This document shows positions 1,414 to 38,928 of a stretch of DNA of 39,062 nt, piece after piece. A program made the translations under genes and the position numbers. The stretch's first letter is position 1; every line of letters starts with the position of its first letter. The notes below the pieces were generated by a model, which was not told the DNA's origin, made no database searches, and saw nothing but the letters and a program-made list of their open reading frames with translations. The stretch spans positions 1-39,062 of the IMG/VR virus record IMGVR_UViG_3300042934_000739, one strand, 5' to 3'. This DNA is from a virus.

Positions 1414-1686
1414 CTATAACAGAAACCACTTGCACGAGTTATTATCAAACATCAATTTAAAAGGTACTATCAAGCCTTCAACGACACTCTCACACTTAAA
1501 GTGAAAAGCTCTCCCATCTGCTCTATTCATTGTGGAATAAGTCTTTTTGATTTCCTTTTCAATTATCTTATCTACATTTATAACATGTTTTCCTTCTGTA
1601 TCCTCAAAGCGTATTCTCCTTGGCTCTGGATTACCCTTACCATCAAATTTTGCTATACAATCAACAGGTCTTTTCTCTCCGGCCAT
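1414..1686 (-). CDS. SOS-regulated conserved small protein, function unknown
   Basis: A 90-aa soluble protein without a domain I can name. It resembles, from memory, a family of about 90-aa clostridial proteins often seen under LexA control, with an N-terminal P-V-x-C-I-A-x-F-D strand, F-K-C-E-S-V at 63-68 and a C-terminal C-K-W-F-L ending. The start is ATG 1686 with GGAGGG upstream; a longer frame to 1746 would run through the promoter. A LexA-box-like palindrome and a TATAAT lie directly upstream, so the gene should be induced by DNA damage. It sits alone between the three-gene unit and the HEPN gene. In a phage with an ImmA-type switch it could help induction, but that is a guess. Confidence 0.7.
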   Translation of the reverse strand: MAGEKRPVDCIAKFDGKGNPEPRRIRFEDTEGKHVINVDKIIEKEIKKTYSTMNRADGRAFHFKCESVVEGLIVPFKLMFDNNSCKWFLL

Positions 1687-1710
1687 GCTATCCCTCCACA
1701 CATATTTTAG

Positions 1711-1734
1711 TATATTATACCAAACATATGTTCT
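1711..1734 (-). promoter_or_regulatory. LexA (SOS) box and -10 element of the 90-aa gene
   Basis: On the + strand 1721-1734 reads CAAACATATGTTCT, matching the Firmicute LexA consensus CGAACATATGTTCG at 12 of 14 positions, with a perfect AACATATGTT core at 1723-1732. Read on the - strand, a TATAAT follows it at about 1714-1719, and the ATG is about 35 nt further on. The box therefore overlaps the -35 to -10 interval, as expected for a repressed SOS promoter. Confidence 0.8.
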
Positions 1735-1743
1735 GTTTAGAAG

Positions 1744-1772
1744 CAAAAAAAAAGAGTGTCTTTACTCTTTTT
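1744..1772 (-). terminator. Rho-independent terminator of the three-gene unit
   Basis: The stem AAAAAGAGT / ACTCTTTTT (1749-1757 with 1764-1772) has a 6-nt loop and a T-run on the - strand. It lies 3 nt beyond the stop of the 88-aa gene and separates that unit from the SOS gene. Confidence 0.75.
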
Positions 1773-1775
1773 ATA

Positions 1776-2042
1776 CTAATCTTTTAAATCGAAACTTGCT
1801 ATAACAGCTTTTGAGCAGACTACCAATACTAAAGCCGCACCTAATAGTCCAAACAATGCTAATAAAAGTAAAATAATTAAACCCTCCATTGCAGCAAGAC
1901 CTTTTATCAAATCAGTAAATATTGATTCTTTATTGAAAAAGCAATTATAAATGTACCCCAATAATATAATATCAACTAATAGATTAAATTGTCCAGGACC
2001 CACTTTCAATGATTTTACTATGTTTGCAAATAATTCATTCAT
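1776..2042 (-). CDS. Small two-helix membrane protein, third gene of the three-gene unit
   Basis: An 88-aa protein with two hydrophobic segments, about residues 20-36 and 52-76. The second is Leu/Ile/Val/Gly-rich with G-x-x-G-A-A small-residue packing. It has no recognised family. Its ATG overlaps the stop of the upstream gene by 8 nt (ATGAATGA), with a GGAGAG ribosome site, so the two are translationally coupled. The terminator follows at once. It is small enough to be a holin-like or pore-forming effector or the membrane partner of the upstream protein, but nothing in the sequence decides this. Confidence 0.7.
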   Translation of the reverse strand: MNELFANIVKSLKVGPGQFNLLVDIILLGYIYNCFFNKESIFTDLIKGLAAMEGLIILLLLALFGLLGAALVLVVCSKAVIASFDLKD

Positions 2043-2814
2043 GCTTCTCTCTCCAACCCCAGCTCTTTCTCATTAATAGTACAGTTCCACCCCAAGCAAA
2101 GGAGAGCAATATAAAGAAAGTAGCCACTTCATTAGGGATTAATACTCTACCATAAACTTCATTATATGTAATTGAAATAACAGATATAGAAAATGCAATT
2201 GCTGAAAAGAATAAGAGATTAAAGTGTATTCTTGGTATTATCATTATTCTACTCTTCATAGCTAACTCCTTTACTTTATTTGCATATACGATTCCCTTAA
2301 GCTCGTTTTTATATGCATGAATTTCGCCATCTTTTTCCAATAACAAAAGATCTTTTTCTTTTATACGTTGGGTCAATTCCTCTACTTCTATCTGTGAAAA
2401 TCTCATCCATTCTAGAAGTTTTCTATAGCTTTTATCAGAGGTAGAAATAGATTCTCCAGTTGGTATATAATCAGTATCTATTTTACTGTTATTAAAAACA
2501 CTTGAAGTGATAGCAAGTTCTCTATCAACTGCTACCAATTGACTTGTTCTATTTTCGATTCCCACTTCACTTACAACAATTCTTCTTCCTGGTTTTAACA
2601 TAGCAGAGAACTGACCTTTTACACTAATCAATTCACTGCCAGAATTCTCATAGCTTGTTATAATTTCATCTCTTTCAATATCAGTACTTTCACTTGTTGA
2701 TAAAGCAATCACACAATCTGAAATGTCTAACTTACCTTTTACATTTAATGCCTCTTCATCTAAATATATATTAGCACTTGCTCTATTATATGCATAGTTT
2801 CTTTCAGTAACCAC
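2035..2814 (-). CDS. Coiled-coil membrane protein, second gene of the three-gene unit
   Basis: A protein of about 259 aa in three parts. The first 130 residues are strand-rich and soluble. A charged coiled coil follows at about 137-180, rich in E, K and L. Two transmembrane helices lie at about 198-216 and 230-248, with a short basic tail. The soluble domain should therefore face the cytoplasm on a stalk. I do not recognise the family. Start choice is uncertain: GTG 2814 has a well-placed AGGGGTGA upstream, while the first in-frame GTG at 2823 lies inside that site. It is 11 nt downstream of the 220-aa gene and coupled to the 88-aa gene. Confidence 0.7.
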   Translation of the reverse strand: MVTERNYAYNRASANIYLDEEALNVKGKLDISDCVIALSTSESTDIERDEIITSYENSGSELISVKGQFSAMLKPGRRIVVSEVGIENRTSQLVAVDRELAITSSVFNNSKIDTDYIPTGESISTSDKSYRKLLEWMRFSQIEVEELTQRIKEKDLLLLEKDGEIHAYKNELKGIVYANKVKELAMKSRIMIIPRIHFNLLFFSAIAFSISVISITYNEVYGRVLIPNEVATFFILLSFAWGGTVLLMRKSWGWREKHE

Positions 2815-2825
2815 AGCACTCACCC

Positions 2826-3488
2826 CTATTCAAAGTTCTGGATATACTTTTTAAATTTATCGATTCCCTCTTCAATTAAGTTCGGTATAAACTTTGATGG
2901 TATATTTTCTATAGAGAAATCGATGTCAACAATATATCCCTTAATATTTCTACTTTCAGACTGGGCGTATTCTGTGGAAAGTATAATCGACTGCATTTCA
3001 CCAGCATTTGTTGCTACTCTAATTGTTTTTTCCATTTCTTTAAAAACAAAAGCATAATCTACCGTGCTTAAATTTGCAATGTTTTTTATTTTTGTTGTAT
3101 CTATATATTTCTTTAAGTGGGAAGTAGCATCCTTAATATCCATTTCTTTAAGGAAAAAAGCTCTCATTCCAAATCTTTCTACTGAATTGACATTTAGCTT
3201 ATTATTTATTAGAGTCCATTTTTCTTTGCAATCTTCTACAAAGTTATCATTTACTTTTATCATTTCATATGTATAAGCAAAACGATTAGGTGACAAAACC
3301 AATTCTTTGCCCGGCATCTCTTTTGAATGCATAGTTAATAAATCTATATTTTGTATGTTATAGTGAGGTAGTTGAGTTAAAAGCCTTGTAAAGACTTCTT
3401 GCTTTTTATCAAAAAAAGCTGGAGTAGAAGCATATCTAATTTCTGTAAACATTCTATCAATAACCCAACCTGGAAAAGAATTTTGCAT
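2826..3488 (-). CDS. Unknown soluble protein, first gene of the three-gene unit
   Basis: A 220-aa soluble protein. Its overall plan is an early E-I-R-Y segment, then F-A-Y-T-Y-E, then R-F-G-M-R-A-F-F mid-protein and a C-terminal V-D-I-D-F strand. This is faintly like the sporadic TIGR04255 family, but the likeness is weak and I would not assign it. The start is ATG 3488 with GAGGTG 6 nt upstream; the longer frame to 3536 starts with TTG, has no ribosome site and overlaps the promoter. It is the promoter-proximal member of the unit, ahead of two membrane proteins, which suggests a cytosolic sensor or regulator with membrane effectors. This is inference only. Confidence 0.7.
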   Translation of the reverse strand: MQNSFPGWVIDRMFTEIRYASTPAFFDKKQEVFTRLLTQLPHYNIQNIDLLTMHSKEMPGKELVLSPNRFAYTYEMIKVNDNFVEDCKEKWTLINNKLNVNSVERFGMRAFFLKEMDIKDATSHLKKYIDTTKIKNIANLSTVDYAFVFKEMEKTIRVATNAGEMQSIILSTEYAQSESRNIKGYIVDIDFSIENIPSKFIPNLIEEGIDKFKKYIQNFE

Positions 3489-24603: not shown

Positions 24604-25158
24604 TTAATAAATTTTTAGACGTTTTATTGCTTGGTTTGCTGTTTCTTGATTTATTCCTATATATCTTAAAGTTACGCTCGGATCGGAGTGATTGAATATT
24701 TCCATTAGAGTTGCCACATCCTTAAATTCTTTATAAAAATGATATCCAAAAGTCTTTCTGAGTGTATGATTCCCGATATTTTCTAAGCCGAATTCGTAAG
24801 CTGCCTTATTTAAGATTCTGTAAGCAGTTGATCTATTCATAGGCTTACCAGTTTTCTTTCTGGACTTAATTAAGTATTCTTCAGGGTCTTTGTCTTTGCA
24901 ATATTCTTTAAGCACTTTTTTTAATATTGGATTAATCTCATTTGCAGATTGCTTACCGGTCTTTTTTTCTCTAATGTTTATTGTGTTTCTGTTTTTTACA
25001 TCAGAGATTCTAATTTTCAAAATATCCGATATTCTCTTGCCGGTATATATCCCAACCATGAACATGATATAATCTCTTTCATTTTGCTCCTTAAAATAAT
25101 GCGCCATGGACCTGACTACCTCAGGATCTCTAATCGGCTCAACAAAATTCAATTGCAT
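24604..25158 (-). CDS. Mini tyrosine recombinase (catalytic domain only)
   Basis: A 184-aa tyrosine recombinase with a full set of active-site residues: R42 (T-G-K-R), K66 or K69 (K-K-T-G-K), H131 and R134 (H-T-L-R-K), H157 (F-N-H-S-D) and Y166 (L-R-Y-I-G). It lacks the usual N-terminal arm- and core-binding domains, having only about 20 residues before the catalytic fold. The phage already has a serine integrase, so this is probably not the integrase. Similar short recombinases occur at the start of late operons in Firmicute phages and may act in regulation or multimer resolution. It overlaps the Cys-rich gene by 10 nt. Confidence 0.85.
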   Translation of the reverse strand: MQLNFVEPIRDPEVVRSMAHYFKEQNERDYIMFMVGIYTGKRISDILKIRISDVKNRNTINIREKKTGKQSANEINPILKKVLKEYCKDKDPEEYLIKSRKKTGKPMNRSTAYRILNKAAYEFGLENIGNHTLRKTFGYHFYKEFKDVATLMEIFNHSDPSVTLRYIGINQETANQAIKRLKIY

Positions 25159-27454: not shown

Positions 27455-28510
27455 TTAAACGACTCTCTCGCCCATCTTGCCGAGTAATGTATTAATAGCA
27501 TTTTTATACTTAATATGGGCCTCTTCATCAGTCCCAGATATTTCAGCTAATACTCCAAGAAGCTTTTGAAAGTCTTTGACCAATTCTTCGAAGTATATTG
27601 AAAATTTCTCTGCTGCTCCAACCATTAGAGCTTTCTTCCTAAGTTCTTCCAACTCTCTTTCTACTTCTTCCGGCACCTTCTCTATGGTTGCTACCGAGGT
27701 TTCAATAGGCTTGTCCTTAATCTGATTTTCAAGGTCCAGTATTTTTTCGTAAGCCTCTTTAAGTTCGCTCTCAGCTTTTTCTATTGAAGCTGTTAACTTC
27801 TCAGTCTCTTCACTATTCCCAGTATCCTCAGCTTCTGTAAATTTGTTCTTCATATCTTCTATGGAGCGTCTCAGTCTATTAATTTCCATGACTGATTTTT
27901 CCTCTTCTTGCCTAAGTGTTTCCTGGAGCTTCTTTACATTAGCCTGAGTCTCCCTAAGAACTCTTTCGCTAAGTCTATTATCAGACTCAGCTTTTTGTTT
28001 TTCTTCAAGTAACTTCAGCGCTTCTTCTGACTTGTTATTTGCTATATTCTTGAACTCATTCATTTTATTAAGGGCTTCATCCCTCTCTTTTATTGCCAAC
28101 TGCAGCTCCCTAGTGGACATATTATCTAGATCATTATTCTCTATAAACTTTTCTCGCTCTTCTTCTGGTAGTCCAAGCAAGGAAATGGCTTGTGTATAGT
28201 TTAAATTGGCAAGCGCTTGCGATTTTGCATTGTCACCTAAAAGCGTTAATTGGTCAGCTCCATATTCTTCAAATATCCTCATTAGGTTGGTTGCAGTTCT
28301 TTGAGAATAATCAACTGACTCTTCAAGCCACTTACCCCACTCGCCATGAGCTACCAGCGTCTTTGCTTCTAGTAACCTGCGACCTATTTCTATACTGTTA
28401 TAAAGCATCATCTTTCTAGTCTGGTTTTTAATATTGTTAATCTCAGCTGCTATTAGCTCTGGTGTCCTGCCTATAAGCATTGATGGATTATTGACCGTTA
28501 AATCATTCAT
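27455..28510 (-). CDS. DUF3102 protein with long coiled coil
   Basis: A 351-aa protein. Residues about 10-145 match DUF3102: I-A-A-E-I-N-N-I-K-x-Q, I-G-R-R-L-L-E-A-K, and H-G-E-W-G-K-W-L-E-E-S-V-D-Y-S-Q-R-T-A-x-N-L-M-R. This region has a ParB/KorB-like DNA-binding look. Residues 145-290 are a coiled coil rich in E, K and L. The C-terminus is helical. It is common in the replication region of Firmicute phages; its role is not proven. GAGGAGG precedes the ATG. Confidence 0.85.
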   Translation of the reverse strand: MNDLTVNNPSMLIGRTPELIAAEINNIKNQTRKMMLYNSIEIGRRLLEAKTLVAHGEWGKWLEESVDYSQRTATNLMRIFEEYGADQLTLLGDNAKSQALANLNYTQAISLLGLPEEEREKFIENNDLDNMSTRELQLAIKERDEALNKMNEFKNIANNKSEEALKLLEEKQKAESDNRLSERVLRETQANVKKLQETLRQEEEKSVMEINRLRRSIEDMKNKFTEAEDTGNSEETEKLTASIEKAESELKEAYEKILDLENQIKDKPIETSVATIEKVPEEVERELEELRKKALMVGAAEKFSIYFEELVKDFQKLLGVLAEISGTDEEAHIKYKNAINTLLGKMGERVV

Positions 28511-28526: not shown

Positions 28527-30131
28527 TTAAGCCGGTATGGCTACCTTAGTTTTGGGTTGTTTTTTCTCTAACACCTGACTTGTATATACTTTAATAAATT
28601 CTGATACATTCTTATCTGGAGCTTTATGACTCTTACCTTGCACTTGCAAAATAACGTTATTATTACTTAATTCCACACAATAATATGGCTTGTCCGGCTC
28701 GGATGAATTACGGATGAACAGGATGTTTGTTTTTCCTGATGCATACTTGGTTATGTATCCATTACCATAATTTCCAACACAGATTGTTAAAGCCTTCCCC
28801 TCGTCTATCATTTCTCTTGTACTTTTCGCAGGTCTGATTATTAAGCCATTACATTCAAAGCAATACTTTTGTAAACCATTTAGCCTAGCTGCTATCTTTT
28901 TATCCAAGAACTTGTTCTCTTCAGTTTTTACTCTCGAGATTGATTCTTGATGAGCAGTAAACAAATCTTTCGGGTATAGAATACGTTCATCTTTAAGATT
29001 CATTTCCAGCGTTATGCAATCTGCAATATAGTCTTTCCAAGATGTTAATACATTGACATCTGAAAAAAAGTGTTTTGATTGTTCTAATCGCTGCTTAGAA
29101 ATATATGAGTTTATTTTTCGCAAAGTGGAATACTTATGGACCTTTTGTAGATCTTGAAAATAGTATACATATTTACTAGCAATACGCTCAATGTCATGAT
29201 GTGATAGATTTGAGCTATCCTTTTTCGCCATTTGATAAAGTCTTAAGAATAAAGGATCTACTTCAGTTTTCAGGTTTTTTAATTCATTTAACTGTTTTTT
29301 ATCAAGTCTGAAAACCTTATCTATACTTTTACCGTTCCAATTTATTGAGCTATACGTGTTATTCCCTAGCAATTTTGCTTCAACTAGATTTGGAAAGCCT
29401 AACTTTGTGATGTACTCAATACAAGGATATTTGGAGTAAAGGTCGAAAAATTTCACCATATCATCATAAAGATAGTTTTCCCAAGTGCTGTATTGGAATG
29501 GCGTTCCTTCTACTGCAGTTCTTATGCTTTGGACCGAGCAATCGACCACACTATTAGGATGACTTAGGAACCAAGTCTTATAAAACGAATGCACGTTTTT
29601 ACATTTCTCTAGTTCACCAGAATACATCTCGTTTTTTCCTTGCCAAGTTGAATAATATACATATCTTTTCATCATTTTGGAGTTGCCTATTTCAAATACA
29701 TATAATGTTTTATCTGCATATTTAGTCTGAACTTTCTTATAGTCATATCTGTAATCACGTACAGCATGAATTCCTCTGGCAATTATTACTTTTGGATCTA
29801 CTTCTGATTTTTCAAAGTATACAAAATATGCTTCATCTATCATCGTCTTGCGACCCATACCACTTGATTTGACTTTGCAATTGCTCTTACAACCTGGACA
29901 TTCGTACTGCATATTATGCTTAAGTTTTTCTGTTTTATATTCACGCTTACAATGAGTGCAATATGCAAATTGTTGTTTGCCTATCCTATGTGTAAACAAA
30001 TATCTTGATGTCTTAAATACCTCATCGATCGCATACTGTTTTAAATCTGAACTATATTTCTTAGAGAAGTGTGATAGGAAATATTCGTTTTCCTTTTTCC
30101 TTAGTTTTTCATAACTATCTTTTTTAGCCAC
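28527..30131 (-). CDS. pcfJ: PcfJ-like protein
   Basis: A 534-aa protein. An N-terminal zinc ribbon has C58, C61, C78 and C81. Residues about 380-520 match the PcfJ family: R-P-A-K-S-T-R-E-M-I-D-E-G-K-A-L and C-V-G-N-Y, then G-K-T-N-I-L-F-I-R and P-D-K-P-Y-Y-C-V-E. PcfJ is known from conjugative plasmid pCF10 but its activity is not settled. Here it lies 13 nt after the PcfK/AcrIIA9-like gene, keeping the plasmid pair. The start is GTG 30131. Confidence 0.88.
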   Translation of the reverse strand: MAKKDSYEKLRKKENEYFLSHFSKKYSSDLKQYAIDEVFKTSRYLFTHRIGKQQFAYCTHCKREYKTEKLKHNMQYECPGCKSNCKVKSSGMGRKTMIDEAYFVYFEKSEVDPKVIIARGIHAVRDYRYDYKKVQTKYADKTLYVFEIGNSKMMKRYVYYSTWQGKNEMYSGELEKCKNVHSFYKTWFLSHPNSVVDCSVQSIRTAVEGTPFQYSTWENYLYDDMVKFFDLYSKYPCIEYITKLGFPNLVEAKLLGNNTYSSINWNGKSIDKVFRLDKKQLNELKNLKTEVDPLFLRLYQMAKKDSSNLSHHDIERIASKYVYYFQDLQKVHKYSTLRKINSYISKQRLEQSKHFFSDVNVLTSWKDYIADCITLEMNLKDERILYPKDLFTAHQESISRVKTEENKFLDKKIAARLNGLQKYCFECNGLIIRPAKSTREMIDEGKALTICVGNYGNGYITKYASGKTNILFIRNSSEPDKPYYCVELSNNNVILQVQGKSHKAPDKNVSEFIKVYTSQVLEKKQPKTKVAIPA

Positions 30132-30144
30132 ATCCTCACCCCCA

Positions 30145-30528
30145 CTACTTCAATAAGTCTTTAAGACTAATATCAAAGTCTACCGATGCTTTTCTCTCAA
30201 TAACTGGATTTTCTTTACTTTGCTCTATGGCCACTGTTGCTGTTGCTGTTGCAGTCGCTGTACTATTTATTCCAAAGTATTTTAAGACTATTGTAAAACC
30301 TTCCTGATCTGCCAGTACTGCACAGTTATTGACCTTCTTTTGAGAAGCTGCTTGCCTCATTGCATCCAGACTTTTAACTATCGACTTATCAGCTGCAAGT
30401 ATTTTCTCTGCTGCTTCAGGGTTAACTTTTAAATATTGCAGTAAGAAGCTTCCTACTGCCTGTATATATGAATTATTCTTACTTTGGTTCATTTCAGTTT
30501 CTATCTTTAATATGGCTTGATTAAACAT
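30145..30528 (-). CDS. PcfK / AcrIIA9-family protein, possible Cas9 inhibitor
   Basis: A 127-aa protein. Residues about 20-87 carry the conserved core of the PcfK-like family that includes AcrIIA9: Y-I-Q-A-V-G-S-F-L-L, then P-E-A-A-E-K-I-L, D-K-S-I-V-K-S-L-D-A-M-R, and C-A-V-L-A-D-Q-E-G-F with Y-F-G-I at 84-87. Residues 90-98 are a Thr-Ala repeat, and the tail ends D-I-S-L-K-D-L-L. AcrIIA9 is known to block Cas9, but most family members are untested and may have another job with PcfJ. AGGAGGT precedes the ATG. Confidence 0.82.
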   Translation of the reverse strand: MFNQAILKIETEMNQSKNNSYIQAVGSFLLQYLKVNPEAAEKILAADKSIVKSLDAMRQAASQKKVNNCAVLADQEGFTIVLKYFGINSTATATATATVAIEQSKENPVIERKASVDFDISLKDLLK

Positions 30529-31489
30529 TTAGATTACCTCCTGCATTTAAGTTTTCTCTTCGTTCAGCTTTTATTTTTTCAATGTCTTCATCGCTGACAG
30601 AGCGTTTTATTTTGTTATTTTCAAGCAACAGCTCCTCTAATGCATTTCCATCATATTTTCTGTTTGCGAAGTTGTTAAAGCTATTACTGTTTCCTTTTGA
30701 GTTATCTTTTTGACTCTGCACTTTAGTCTTTTTTTGCATATTCCTTTTTTCTTCATGTTCTTTGTATTGCTGCATAGTCATTATGCCATTGTTCACCCAG
30801 TTGACAAGAATTGCCTCCGTATATCTCAAGTCAAATTTTTGACCTTTAACTGCTATAGATAAAGCTTCAATTACTAAATCTGCTTCCGTACCATCATCAA
30901 GAAAAGATAGTAACATGTGCACTTGTGCAGGTACTGCTCTTACTCCAAAATTTTTTTTATAGAAGTCCATTATTTTTTTAACTTCAGCTTGTTGAAAATC
31001 AGGAGGAGTAGGAGGGTTTATACTCTCCTCTTCTTTACTTTCCTTTACTATACTTTCCTCTCCTTTCCTTTGAGGGGTTTCCACGTCGGAAACTATACCA
31101 TAAAAGGGGTTTCCGACGTGGAAACTAGGTTTTTTCGGAGTTTCCGACGCCCTTTTCTTATAAAGTTCAGCTAAGTTGTCAACAAATTTTTGCACCCATA
31201 GAATTTTTTGACCCCAAAGTTCTTGATCTATTGCTCCTAGTTCACTTAATGTATTAAGTATCTTAAGCGCTTTTTCTTCATCTACACGTGTTTTTGCTAA
31301 TAGAAACTTCCACTCAGCAAGATTATTGCAGTTATAATAATGACCTTCTGTAGCCCCAAGAATTTCTAATAATTTAAACCAAAATGCATATCCATCATTT
31401 CCAAAACTTGATTCAAGAATAAATATAGTTTTGCCACTTAATACAAAGTGAGGAAAATATTCTGCTGTTTGTTTCTTTGGTCTTGCCAC
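30521..31489 (-). CDS. Replication initiation protein: Lin1244/DUF4373 plus DnaD-like domain
   Basis: A 322-aa initiator. Residues about 8-105 match the Lin1244/Lin1753 (DUF4373) N-terminal domain: Y-F-P-H-F-V-L-S-G-K, G-Y-A-F-W-F-K-L-L-E-I-L. A linker of charged repeats covers 110-165. Residues about 165-245 are DnaD/DnaB2-like, with I-M-D-F-Y-K-K-N-F-G near the start and Y-x-E-A-I-L-V-N-W near the end. It should load the host helicase at the origin, which may lie inside this linker (31077-31149). The start is GTG 31489 with GGGGAGGTGA upstream. Confidence 0.88.
   Translation of the reverse strand: MARPKKQTAEYFPHFVLSGKTIFILESSFGNDGYAFWFKLLEILGATEGHYYNCNNLAEWKFLLAKTRVDEEKALKILNTLSELGAIDQELWGQKILWVQKFVDNLAELYKKRASETPKKPSFHVGNPFYGIVSDVETPQRKGEESIVKESKEEESINPPTPPDFQQAEVKKIMDFYKKNFGVRAVPAQVHMLLSFLDDGTEADLVIEALSIAVKGQKFDLRYTEAILVNWVNNGIMTMQQYKEHEEKRNMQKKTKVQSQKDNSKGNSNSFNNFANRKYDGNALEELLLENNKIKRSVSDEDIEKIKAERRENLNAGGNLNV
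31077..31149. other. Candidate replication origin (iterons inside the initiator gene)
   Basis: A 17-bp inverted pair, 31077-31093 and 31109-31125, is perfect: GTTTCCACGTCGGAAAC and GTTTCCGACGTGGAAAC. A third partial copy GTTTCCGACG lies at 31140-31149. A pyrimidine-rich tract (about 31021-31070) adjoins it. The repeats encode part of the linker (residues about 122-138), where protein sequence is free to vary. Origins inside initiator genes are usual in Firmicute phages. Confidence 0.6.
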
Positions 31490-37378: not shown

Positions 37379-37410
37379 CGAGATTTAAATATACCGAATT
37401 GAGGTGTAAT

Positions 37411-38928
37411 ATGAAAGCAGCCATATATGTACGTGTATCAACTGAAGAACAAGCTAACGAAGGAATGTCTGTATCTGGACAGATTGAAACCCTTACACAA
37501 TACTGTAATTTGTTTGGACTTGAAATATATAGCATATACAAGGACTTAGGTATATCTGGTAAGGATACAATTAATAGGCCAGGGCTTAATCAATTAATTG
37601 AAGATAGCAAAAATGACTTGTTTAGTTCTGTACTAGTATGGAAAATATCACGTCTCAGCCGGAGCTTAAAAGATTTATTAAACATTGTTGATATGTTTGA
37701 TAAAAGTGGAGTAAACTTTATCAGCTATTCTGAAAAATTTGACACCTCTACTCCAGTAGGGAAAATGACACTTCAATTATTAGGATCCATAGCAGAATTC
37801 GAAAGAAATACTATCATTGAGAATGTAAAGATGGGATTGAAGGAACGTATAAGGCAAGGCAATAAATCAGGTGGACATATATATGGCTATGATTGGAAAG
37901 ATAAGAAGCTTATTATAAATGATCACGAAGCTGATGCAGTAAGAACTATATTTGACTTGTATGTAAATAAAGAATATAGCTTACATTCGATAACAAAATA
38001 TCTAAATGATAGTGGCTATAAAACAAAGAGAGATATTCGATTCACTCATTTTTCTGTGGGTGTAATACTTAAAAATCCTACTTATATAGGGTTAGTTAGA
38101 CATAACACAAATACCGAAAATGAGTATACGGTCCAAGGAAACCATCCCCCATTGATCAGTGAAGAAATTTATAATGCAGCGCAATCTCGTAGGAGCACCA
38201 GGTCTACCTTGACTCAGCGCAATCATGAAGAAGGAACTTTCCTCCTCACTGGACTTATAAGGTGCCCTTTGTGCAATAGCCCTTTATGTGGAACATATAA
38301 CACTGCAAATAAAACAAGTACTACCGGTAAGAATTATAATTATAGATACAGATATTACAAATGTAATAGAGAAACCGCAAAACATGATTGCAAGCTTGGT
38401 TATATTTCTGCTGATAAACTCGAAAACAAAGCAATTGCTATAATTTTGGGACTCGCTGAAAACACCAACCTTATTGAGGATTCTATTACAAAGACAAATA
38501 AAGAAGCCGAGAAAGATTTAGCACCAATGGAAAAGCAATTGAAGCACATTGAGTCACAACTTGTAAAATTGGAGAAAACTAAAAATAGTTATTTCGAAAT
38601 GTTTGAATCCGAAGAGATAAATGATAAGAAGATATTTTTAGAAAGACTTAATAAGATTGAAAGTGAAATACAATCACTATCATCAAAGCGCACAGAATTA
38701 GCCAGAGAGGTAGAAATGCATAGAAGTAATCCAATAGCATTAGAGAAGGCATTATTTACTATAGATGCCTTTGTGAAGCTTATACAAGTTGCCTCTATAG
38801 AGGATAAAAAAAGACTAATTCGTACAATTGTCCAAGAGATCAAACTTACTAATAATAAAGATATTGAATATATCAAATTATGGTTAGATAATGAGTCTGG
38901 AAAAGCTTTGACTTTCTCTCAGTCATGA
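37411..38928 (+). CDS. int: Large serine integrase
   Basis: A 505-aa large serine recombinase. The catalytic domain opens A-A-I-Y-V-R-V-S-T-E-E-Q with Ser10, then S-R-L-S-R and the G-x-M-T-L-Q-L-L-G-S-I-A-E-F-E-R helix. A recombinase domain (about 160-260) is followed by a zinc ribbon with C-P-L-C...C...C and a long coiled coil with further C-terminal helices. It catalyses attP-attB integration. The start is ATG 37411 with GAGGTG upstream; the frame extends to a TTG at 37399. The stop lies 7 nt before the circular junction. Confidence 0.96.
   Translation: MKAAIYVRVSTEEQANEGMSVSGQIETLTQYCNLFGLEIYSIYKDLGISGKDTINRPGLNQLIEDSKNDLFSSVLVWKISRLSRSLKDLLNIVDMFDKSGVNFISYSEKFDTSTPVGKMTLQLLGSIAEFERNTIIENVKMGLKERIRQGNKSGGHIYGYDWKDKKLIINDHEADAVRTIFDLYVNKEYSLHSITKYLNDSGYKTKRDIRFTHFSVGVILKNPTYIGLVRHNTNTENEYTVQGNHPPLISEEIYNAAQSRRSTRSTLTQRNHEEGTFLLTGLIRCPLCNSPLCGTYNTANKTSTTGKNYNYRYRYYKCNRETAKHDCKLGYISADKLENKAIAIILGLAENTNLIEDSITKTNKEAEKDLAPMEKQLKHIESQLVKLEKTKNSYFEMFESEEINDKKIFLERLNKIESEIQSLSSKRTELAREVEMHRSNPIALEKALFTIDAFVKLIQVASIEDKKRLIRTIVQEIKLTNNKDIEYIKLWLDNESGKALTFSQS

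Follow-up and report, generated by a model that had tools for sequence, protein, structure and literature searches.

The question raised by this locus is whether a small PcfK-family protein encoded beside PcfJ in a phage is an early inhibitor of Cas9, or whether it shares a DNA-processing role with PcfJ to which any inhibition of Cas9 is incidental, the two possibilities put forward in an earlier note on this DNA. The window, i.e. the whole 39,062 nt stretch of IMG/VR record IMGVR_UViG_3300042934_000739 that was analysed, is a temperate phage by gene content, with genes for a terminase, portal, major head protein, tape measure, tail proteins and endolysin, along with a repressor beside a metallo-protease-like gene and a large serine integrase. 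Two integration-type genes were present, one encoding a 184-aa protein that matched phrog_216 (phage integrase family) beside the terminase genes (24604-25158) and the other the 509-aa serine integrase at the opposite end of the window (37399-38928).

The PcfK-PcfJ pair lies in a phage replication block

Both open reading frames were located at the positions given by the earlier note, with PcfJ adjoining PcfK, and the replication setting that it had described was also borne out. The start of PcfK overlaps by 8 nt the end of the upstream gene for a DnaD-type, helicase-loader-like protein, and a gap of 16 nt separates the end of PcfJ from a downstream DUF3102 gene (Table 1). The pair is part of the replication block of the phage, in the order DnaD-type gene, PcfK, PcfJ, DUF3102.

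Table 1. Features of the PcfK-PcfJ locus, in window coordinates.
Feature	Position	Strand	Evidence
DnaD-domain replication initiation / helicase-loader-like protein	30521..31489	-	PF07261 3.6e-14; phrog_2562 2e-40; TIGR01446
PcfK-family protein, 127 aa, ATG start	30145..30528	-	phrog_7445 E=7.9e-11; AcrIIA9 family through RefSeq naming of relatives
PcfK helical core, aa 1-87	30268..30528	-	alignment of relatives and structure model
PcfK linker, variable, predicted disordered, aa 88-117	30178..30267	-	alignment, model, tandem repeat
PcfK C-terminal tail FDISLKDLLK, putative docking, aa 118-127	30148..30177	-	alignment; clade motif FDVxL[DE]D[FL]L
PcfJ, 534 aa, GTG start	28527..30131	-	PF14284 E=9.9e-34; phrog_8470 E=1.2e-96
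PcfJ zinc ribbon, C58 C61 C78 C81	29889..29960	-	four cysteines
PcfJ C-terminal domain (PF14284), aa 418-527	28551..28880	-	GNAT-like fold in model; invariant C451, Q496
DUF3102 coiled-coil protein, third gene of block	27455..28510	-	PF11300 5.5e-57

Identity and domains of PcfJ

By sequence, the larger protein is certainly PcfJ, scoring 116.7 bits with PF14284, for which the cut-off is 25. Its AF2 model (pLDDT 93.9) consists of a zinc ribbon, a helical middle and a conserved C-terminal domain, in which E444, G445, Y455, R474 and E487 are nearly invariant. Structure comparison of the C-terminal domain returned GNAT acetyltransferases in nearly all of the best 50 VIA matches, the best at Z 7.0 and rmsd 3.4 over 101 aligned residues, a level (Z <8) that can represent a common arrangement. 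Foldseek gave an E-value of at best 0.17 for the same domain, there was no Pfam GNAT match in the window PcfJ, and a PDB profile search with PcfJ gave weak zinc-ribbon-type matches only (E>0.05). The GNAT-like fold of this domain is a lead from the structure model.

Most PcfJs have H450 and N502, as opposed to I450 and H502 in the window PcfJ, its sister L015 and the relatives L098 and L099. The double change also occurs in Paenibacillus and other PcfJ relatives, and the site in the window protein may be rearranged rather than dead. Positions 450 and 502 were considered as a coupled pair and not singled out (mutual information rank 1210 of 3935), leaving the swap as an observation only.

The 127-aa protein is a divergent PcfK

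The earlier note had assigned the smaller protein a PcfK/AcrIIA9-family core and had held that the absence of a PF14058 match would speak against it. Such a match was indeed absent for the window PcfK alone, even at E<=10, and the gathering cut-off was not reached, although PF14058 weakly matched 7 of the 8 sequences in the first alignment of relatives (best E=0.0015). Judged by sequence, the curated model does not extend to the window clade. Single-sequence searches of NCBIfam and PDB gave no useful match, a PDB profile search found nothing, and no match was found by tblastn against the INPHARED phage set. A profile built from 57 phage-clade PcfKs, with no pCF10 sequence among them, had the PcfK of pCF10 as its sole match among 158 ORFs (E=9e-9), and the pCF10 PcfJ beside it was matched at 2.6e-42 in a profile search. 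The reciprocal profile, from pCF10-type PcfKs, also picked up the phage PcfKs. Plasmid relatives with 34-47% identity to the window PcfK bear the RefSeq name 'Cas9 inhibitor AcrIIA9 family protein' and have PcfJ directly behind them, and the PcfK-like and PcfJ-like proteins of phage ctkvU4 were the top structure matches of the window PcfK and PcfJ models. Because its relatives match PF14058 weakly, and because of the RefSeq naming and the profile match to pCF10 PcfK, the protein is classified as a divergent PcfK, at family level only; the proposed core is upheld by family profile, relatives and RefSeq names, and not by the window sequence alone. No Bacteroidota PcfK, likely the AcrIIA9 clade, was reached among the plasmids or viral contigs searched.

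Conserved core, predicted disordered linker and lineage-dependent tail of PcfK

The alignment and model point to an architecture that appears to be new, in which the helical core of PcfK is joined by a predicted disordered linker to a conserved tail whose type depends on the lineage. Within the core, K8, E12, G26, K48, S53, M57, A61, D74, E76, G77, V81, L82 and Y84 are invariant over 54 relatives. The model is weak overall (mean pLDDT 72), with pLDDT 83-89 at aa 1-60 and lower values beyond, and a fold search with it, in which the best match had Z 4.3 and was to unrelated helical proteins, was accordingly given no meaning. The linker varies in length among relatives. In the window it includes a stretch, ATATATAT, encoded by 4.7 copies of the 6-nt tandem repeat CTGTTG (30234-30261), and slippage at this repeat could alter the linker length. 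In the tail of the window clade, F118 and L122 are nearly invariant, and this tail aligns at the same place as the clamp motif QL[SD]LF of pCF10-type PcfK.

The published sliding-clamp consensus, QL[S/D]LF, is exemplified by the C-terminal QLSLF of B. subtilis PolC (PMC12309361). A Q..[LIM][FL] pattern was found within the last 30 aa of 15 of 18 divergent pCF10-type or Alicyclobacillus PcfKs, compared with 56 of 2085 other ORFs (p=1e-20) and a shuffled expectation averaging 0.37; the remaining three PcfKs, which do not fit the pattern, have the ends EIDLF, KMSLF and DDQLSF. Clamp tails also occur in phage PcfKs, namely those of Listeria phage B054 (gp61, QLDLL), Streptococcus phage 315.3 (QLDLF) and Erysipelothrix phage SE-1 (QLSIF). 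The idea that residence on a plasmid or in a phage decides the tail type was rejected, as it is contradicted both by these phages and by a Cytobacillus plasmid (L005) with an FDVxL tail. In one element (L105), a methyltransferase-like gene beside PcfK (1498-3162) likewise ends in QLSLF, and its product may be a second clamp binder of that element. A QL[S/D]LF-type motif is absent from the window tail, which has neither Q nor F at the key places. No report of a clamp-type PcfK tail or of its exchange was found in the open-access literature searched.

Tail type changes with the gene behind PcfJ

With the window excluded, and with tail classes that were defined after inspection of the tails, an FDVxL-type tail was present in 84 of 85 loci with DUF3102 behind PcfJ and in none of 19 loci without it. 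The presence of DUF3102 changes seven times when mapped onto a PcfJ-only tree. Well-supported branches of this tree give five independent pairs, and in every one of them tail type switches along with DUF3102 (sign test p=0.0625, the smallest value possible with five). The window tail departs from the pattern by a K at a D/E position and was classed by hand in the first pair test, and a rerun without the window gave the same result. In place of DUF3102, three loci (L013, L039, L079) have a 652/653-aa polymerase-like ORF behind PcfJ and two (L089, L096) a 782/783-aa primase-like ORF, names that are a reading of the sequence with no family search behind them. The tails of close kin without DUF3102 are IDFEFDDLL, LDFEFEDLL, IDFDFDALL or IDAEFEAMM. 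In two phages (L115, L119), a PcfK with the tail LQLDLDSLLDF is followed by PcfJ and then by a 291-aa coiled-coil protein that is DUF3102-like by eye.

This tracking of the third gene by the PcfK tail suggests a docking peptide. The association may also mark lineage rather than contact, because nearby genes share history. Because the clamp motif is absent from the window tail, the association is the only pointer to its ligand, for which the DUF3102 protein of the window is a candidate.

PcfK is always followed by PcfJ

Relatives of PcfK were recovered from 56 viral loci, 39 genome loci and many plasmids, and the core of pCF10 PcfK was matched in 441 plasmid records. PcfJ lies directly after PcfK, often overlapping it, in all 112 loci with a readable downstream side; three further loci without PcfJ behind PcfK, outside the 112, are ones in which the sequence ends there. 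PcfJ occurs without a recognisable PcfK in Enterococcus phage EFDG1 and Bacillus phage Bp8p-C. Because of this pairing, and because PcfJ is also found alone, PcfK depends on PcfJ and not the reverse, as would be expected of a partner or adaptor and not of an anti-CRISPR that acts on its own. The neighbours of the relatives include genes for a replication initiator, DnaC, SSB, RusA, LigA or RecD-like proteins. The occurrence of PcfK-PcfJ in phages is itself already present in public annotation (Listeria phage B054 and others).

Proposed function and alternative explanations

No account of PcfJ or PcfK function was found in the open-access literature searched. The second possibility raised by the earlier note, a shared DNA-processing role with PcfJ, is supported in outline by the invariant pairing, the replication neighbours and the clamp-motif tails in most pCF10-type relatives. 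A possible explanation for these observations is that PcfK is an adaptor tying PcfJ to replication proteins, with the pair forming an accessory module for replication or DNA processing, and this is considered to have about an even chance of being correct. PcfJ would be the working, probably enzymatic, part of the two-protein module and would most likely act on DNA or a protein at the fork or at a transfer intermediate, to which PcfK would bring it. The helical core of PcfK would contact and serve PcfJ, and the C-terminal tail, on its disordered tether, would dock onto a replication protein. The most likely ligand of the tail would be the host sliding clamp DnaN for pCF10-type plasmids and for the Listeria, Streptococcus and Erysipelothrix phages, and in the window clade the FDVxLxDLL tail would most likely dock onto the DUF3102 protein or something tied to it. 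Some members would then have the Cas9 inhibition reported for AcrIIA9 as a separate trait or an incidental one. Somewhat more tentatively, at a little below an even chance, PcfK may be a general adaptor with an exchangeable docking peptide, directed to the sliding clamp in plasmids and some phages, to DUF3102 in the window clade and to polymerase or primase modules in others, such that the name 'AcrIIA9 family' would be misleading for most members.

The CRISPR types of hosts, which the earlier note had proposed to check, were surveyed in 36 host genomes carrying a window-clade PcfK locus. Cas1 was present in 14 of these and full-length Cas9, over the model cut-off, in one, which is a MAG. With Cas9 in 8 of 299 genomes of the Bacillota background there was no enrichment (Fisher p=1), in a comparison that has low power for enrichment, covers sequenced carriers rather than the further strains open to infection by a phage, and draws on hosts of clade relatives rather than of the window phage. 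Host Cas9 is neither needed nor enriched for PcfK carriage and PcfK was never seen without PcfJ where the neighbour was readable, and the suggestion of a dedicated, early Cas9 inhibitor is not supported. Some hosts of the wider PcfK family, namely Listeria, Streptococcus and Enterococcus, often have Cas9, and RefSeq extends the AcrIIA9 name to plasmid relatives, both of which favour a true early anti-CRISPR against the Cas9 of a type II host, with PcfJ a mere travelling neighbour. The PcfK domain carried by AcrIIA9 points the same way, but an Aca neighbour is found in only 0.3% of AcrIIA9 homologues (PMC6739104), and together with the host data, the constant pairing with PcfJ and the ordered conservation of the PcfK core and tail this makes such a role for the window PcfK very improbable. 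A dual use, in which PcfK is the replication partner of PcfJ and in some lineages, being small and helical, binds Cas9 as well, would join the invariant pairing to the inhibition of Cas9 reported for AcrIIA9 (PMC6739104; work by Uribe as cited in PMC6739867). Cas9 binding as a side activity of PcfK may be compatible with its sequence, but the present analysis lends no support to such binding by the window clade, and dual use is regarded as possible, if rather doubtful.

A further explanation concerns the tail rather than the protein as a whole: FDVxLxDLL could still be a clamp ligand, altered in sequence, for the clamp of the host or of a phage, or it could be an acidic tip of the SSB type, with the DUF3102 association marking lineage only. 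The tail occupies the same aligned place as QLSLF, and T4 gp55, gp33 and gp43 bind their clamp via hydrophobic-acidic C-termini (PMC2988020). However, the key Q and F are gone from the tail, a DnaN-like protein is encoded in only 2 of 32 clade records, the window not among them, and tail type and DUF3102 change together in each of the five supported pairs, such that this explanation appears unlikely.

Implications and comparison with known systems

The label 'Cas9 inhibitor AcrIIA9 family' has been given by homology to plasmid and phage proteins that, counted together with those resembling them, number in the hundreds. If most of these are PcfJ adaptors docking on replication proteins, surveys of anti-CRISPRs are misled by the label, and simple assays of peptide binding to DnaN and DUF3102 could test what PcfJ and PcfK do.

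The PcfK-PcfJ pair of pCF10 (Enterococcus faecalis) resembles that of the window in gene order and in the homologous PcfK core and PcfJ C-terminal half, but pCF10 PcfK is a 258 aa protein with an extra N-terminal domain and the clamp-motif end EQIDLFECV, and its locus has a conjugative setting and no DUF3102. The window PcfK is linked to AcrIIA9 through the PcfK domain (PMC6739104) and the RefSeq name of relatives; AcrIIA9 is reported to inhibit Cas9, whereas the hosts of the window clade mostly lack Cas9. Closer in setting are the pairs of Listeria phage B054 (gp61-gp62), Streptococcus phage 315.3 (SpyM3_1131-1130) and Erysipelothrix phage SE-1 (gp08-gp07), near replication genes in B054 and SE-1 and near recT in 315.3, which differ from the window in their clamp-motif PcfK tails (QLDLL, QLDLF and QLSIF, respectively). 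A C-terminal docking peptide of the kind proposed for PcfK is present in B. subtilis PolC (QLSLF) and in T4 gp55 and gp33 (PMC12309361, PMC2988020), and that of gp55 is carried on a divergent linker (PMC2988020); unlike the PolC peptide, the tail of the window PcfK has a non-canonical motif.
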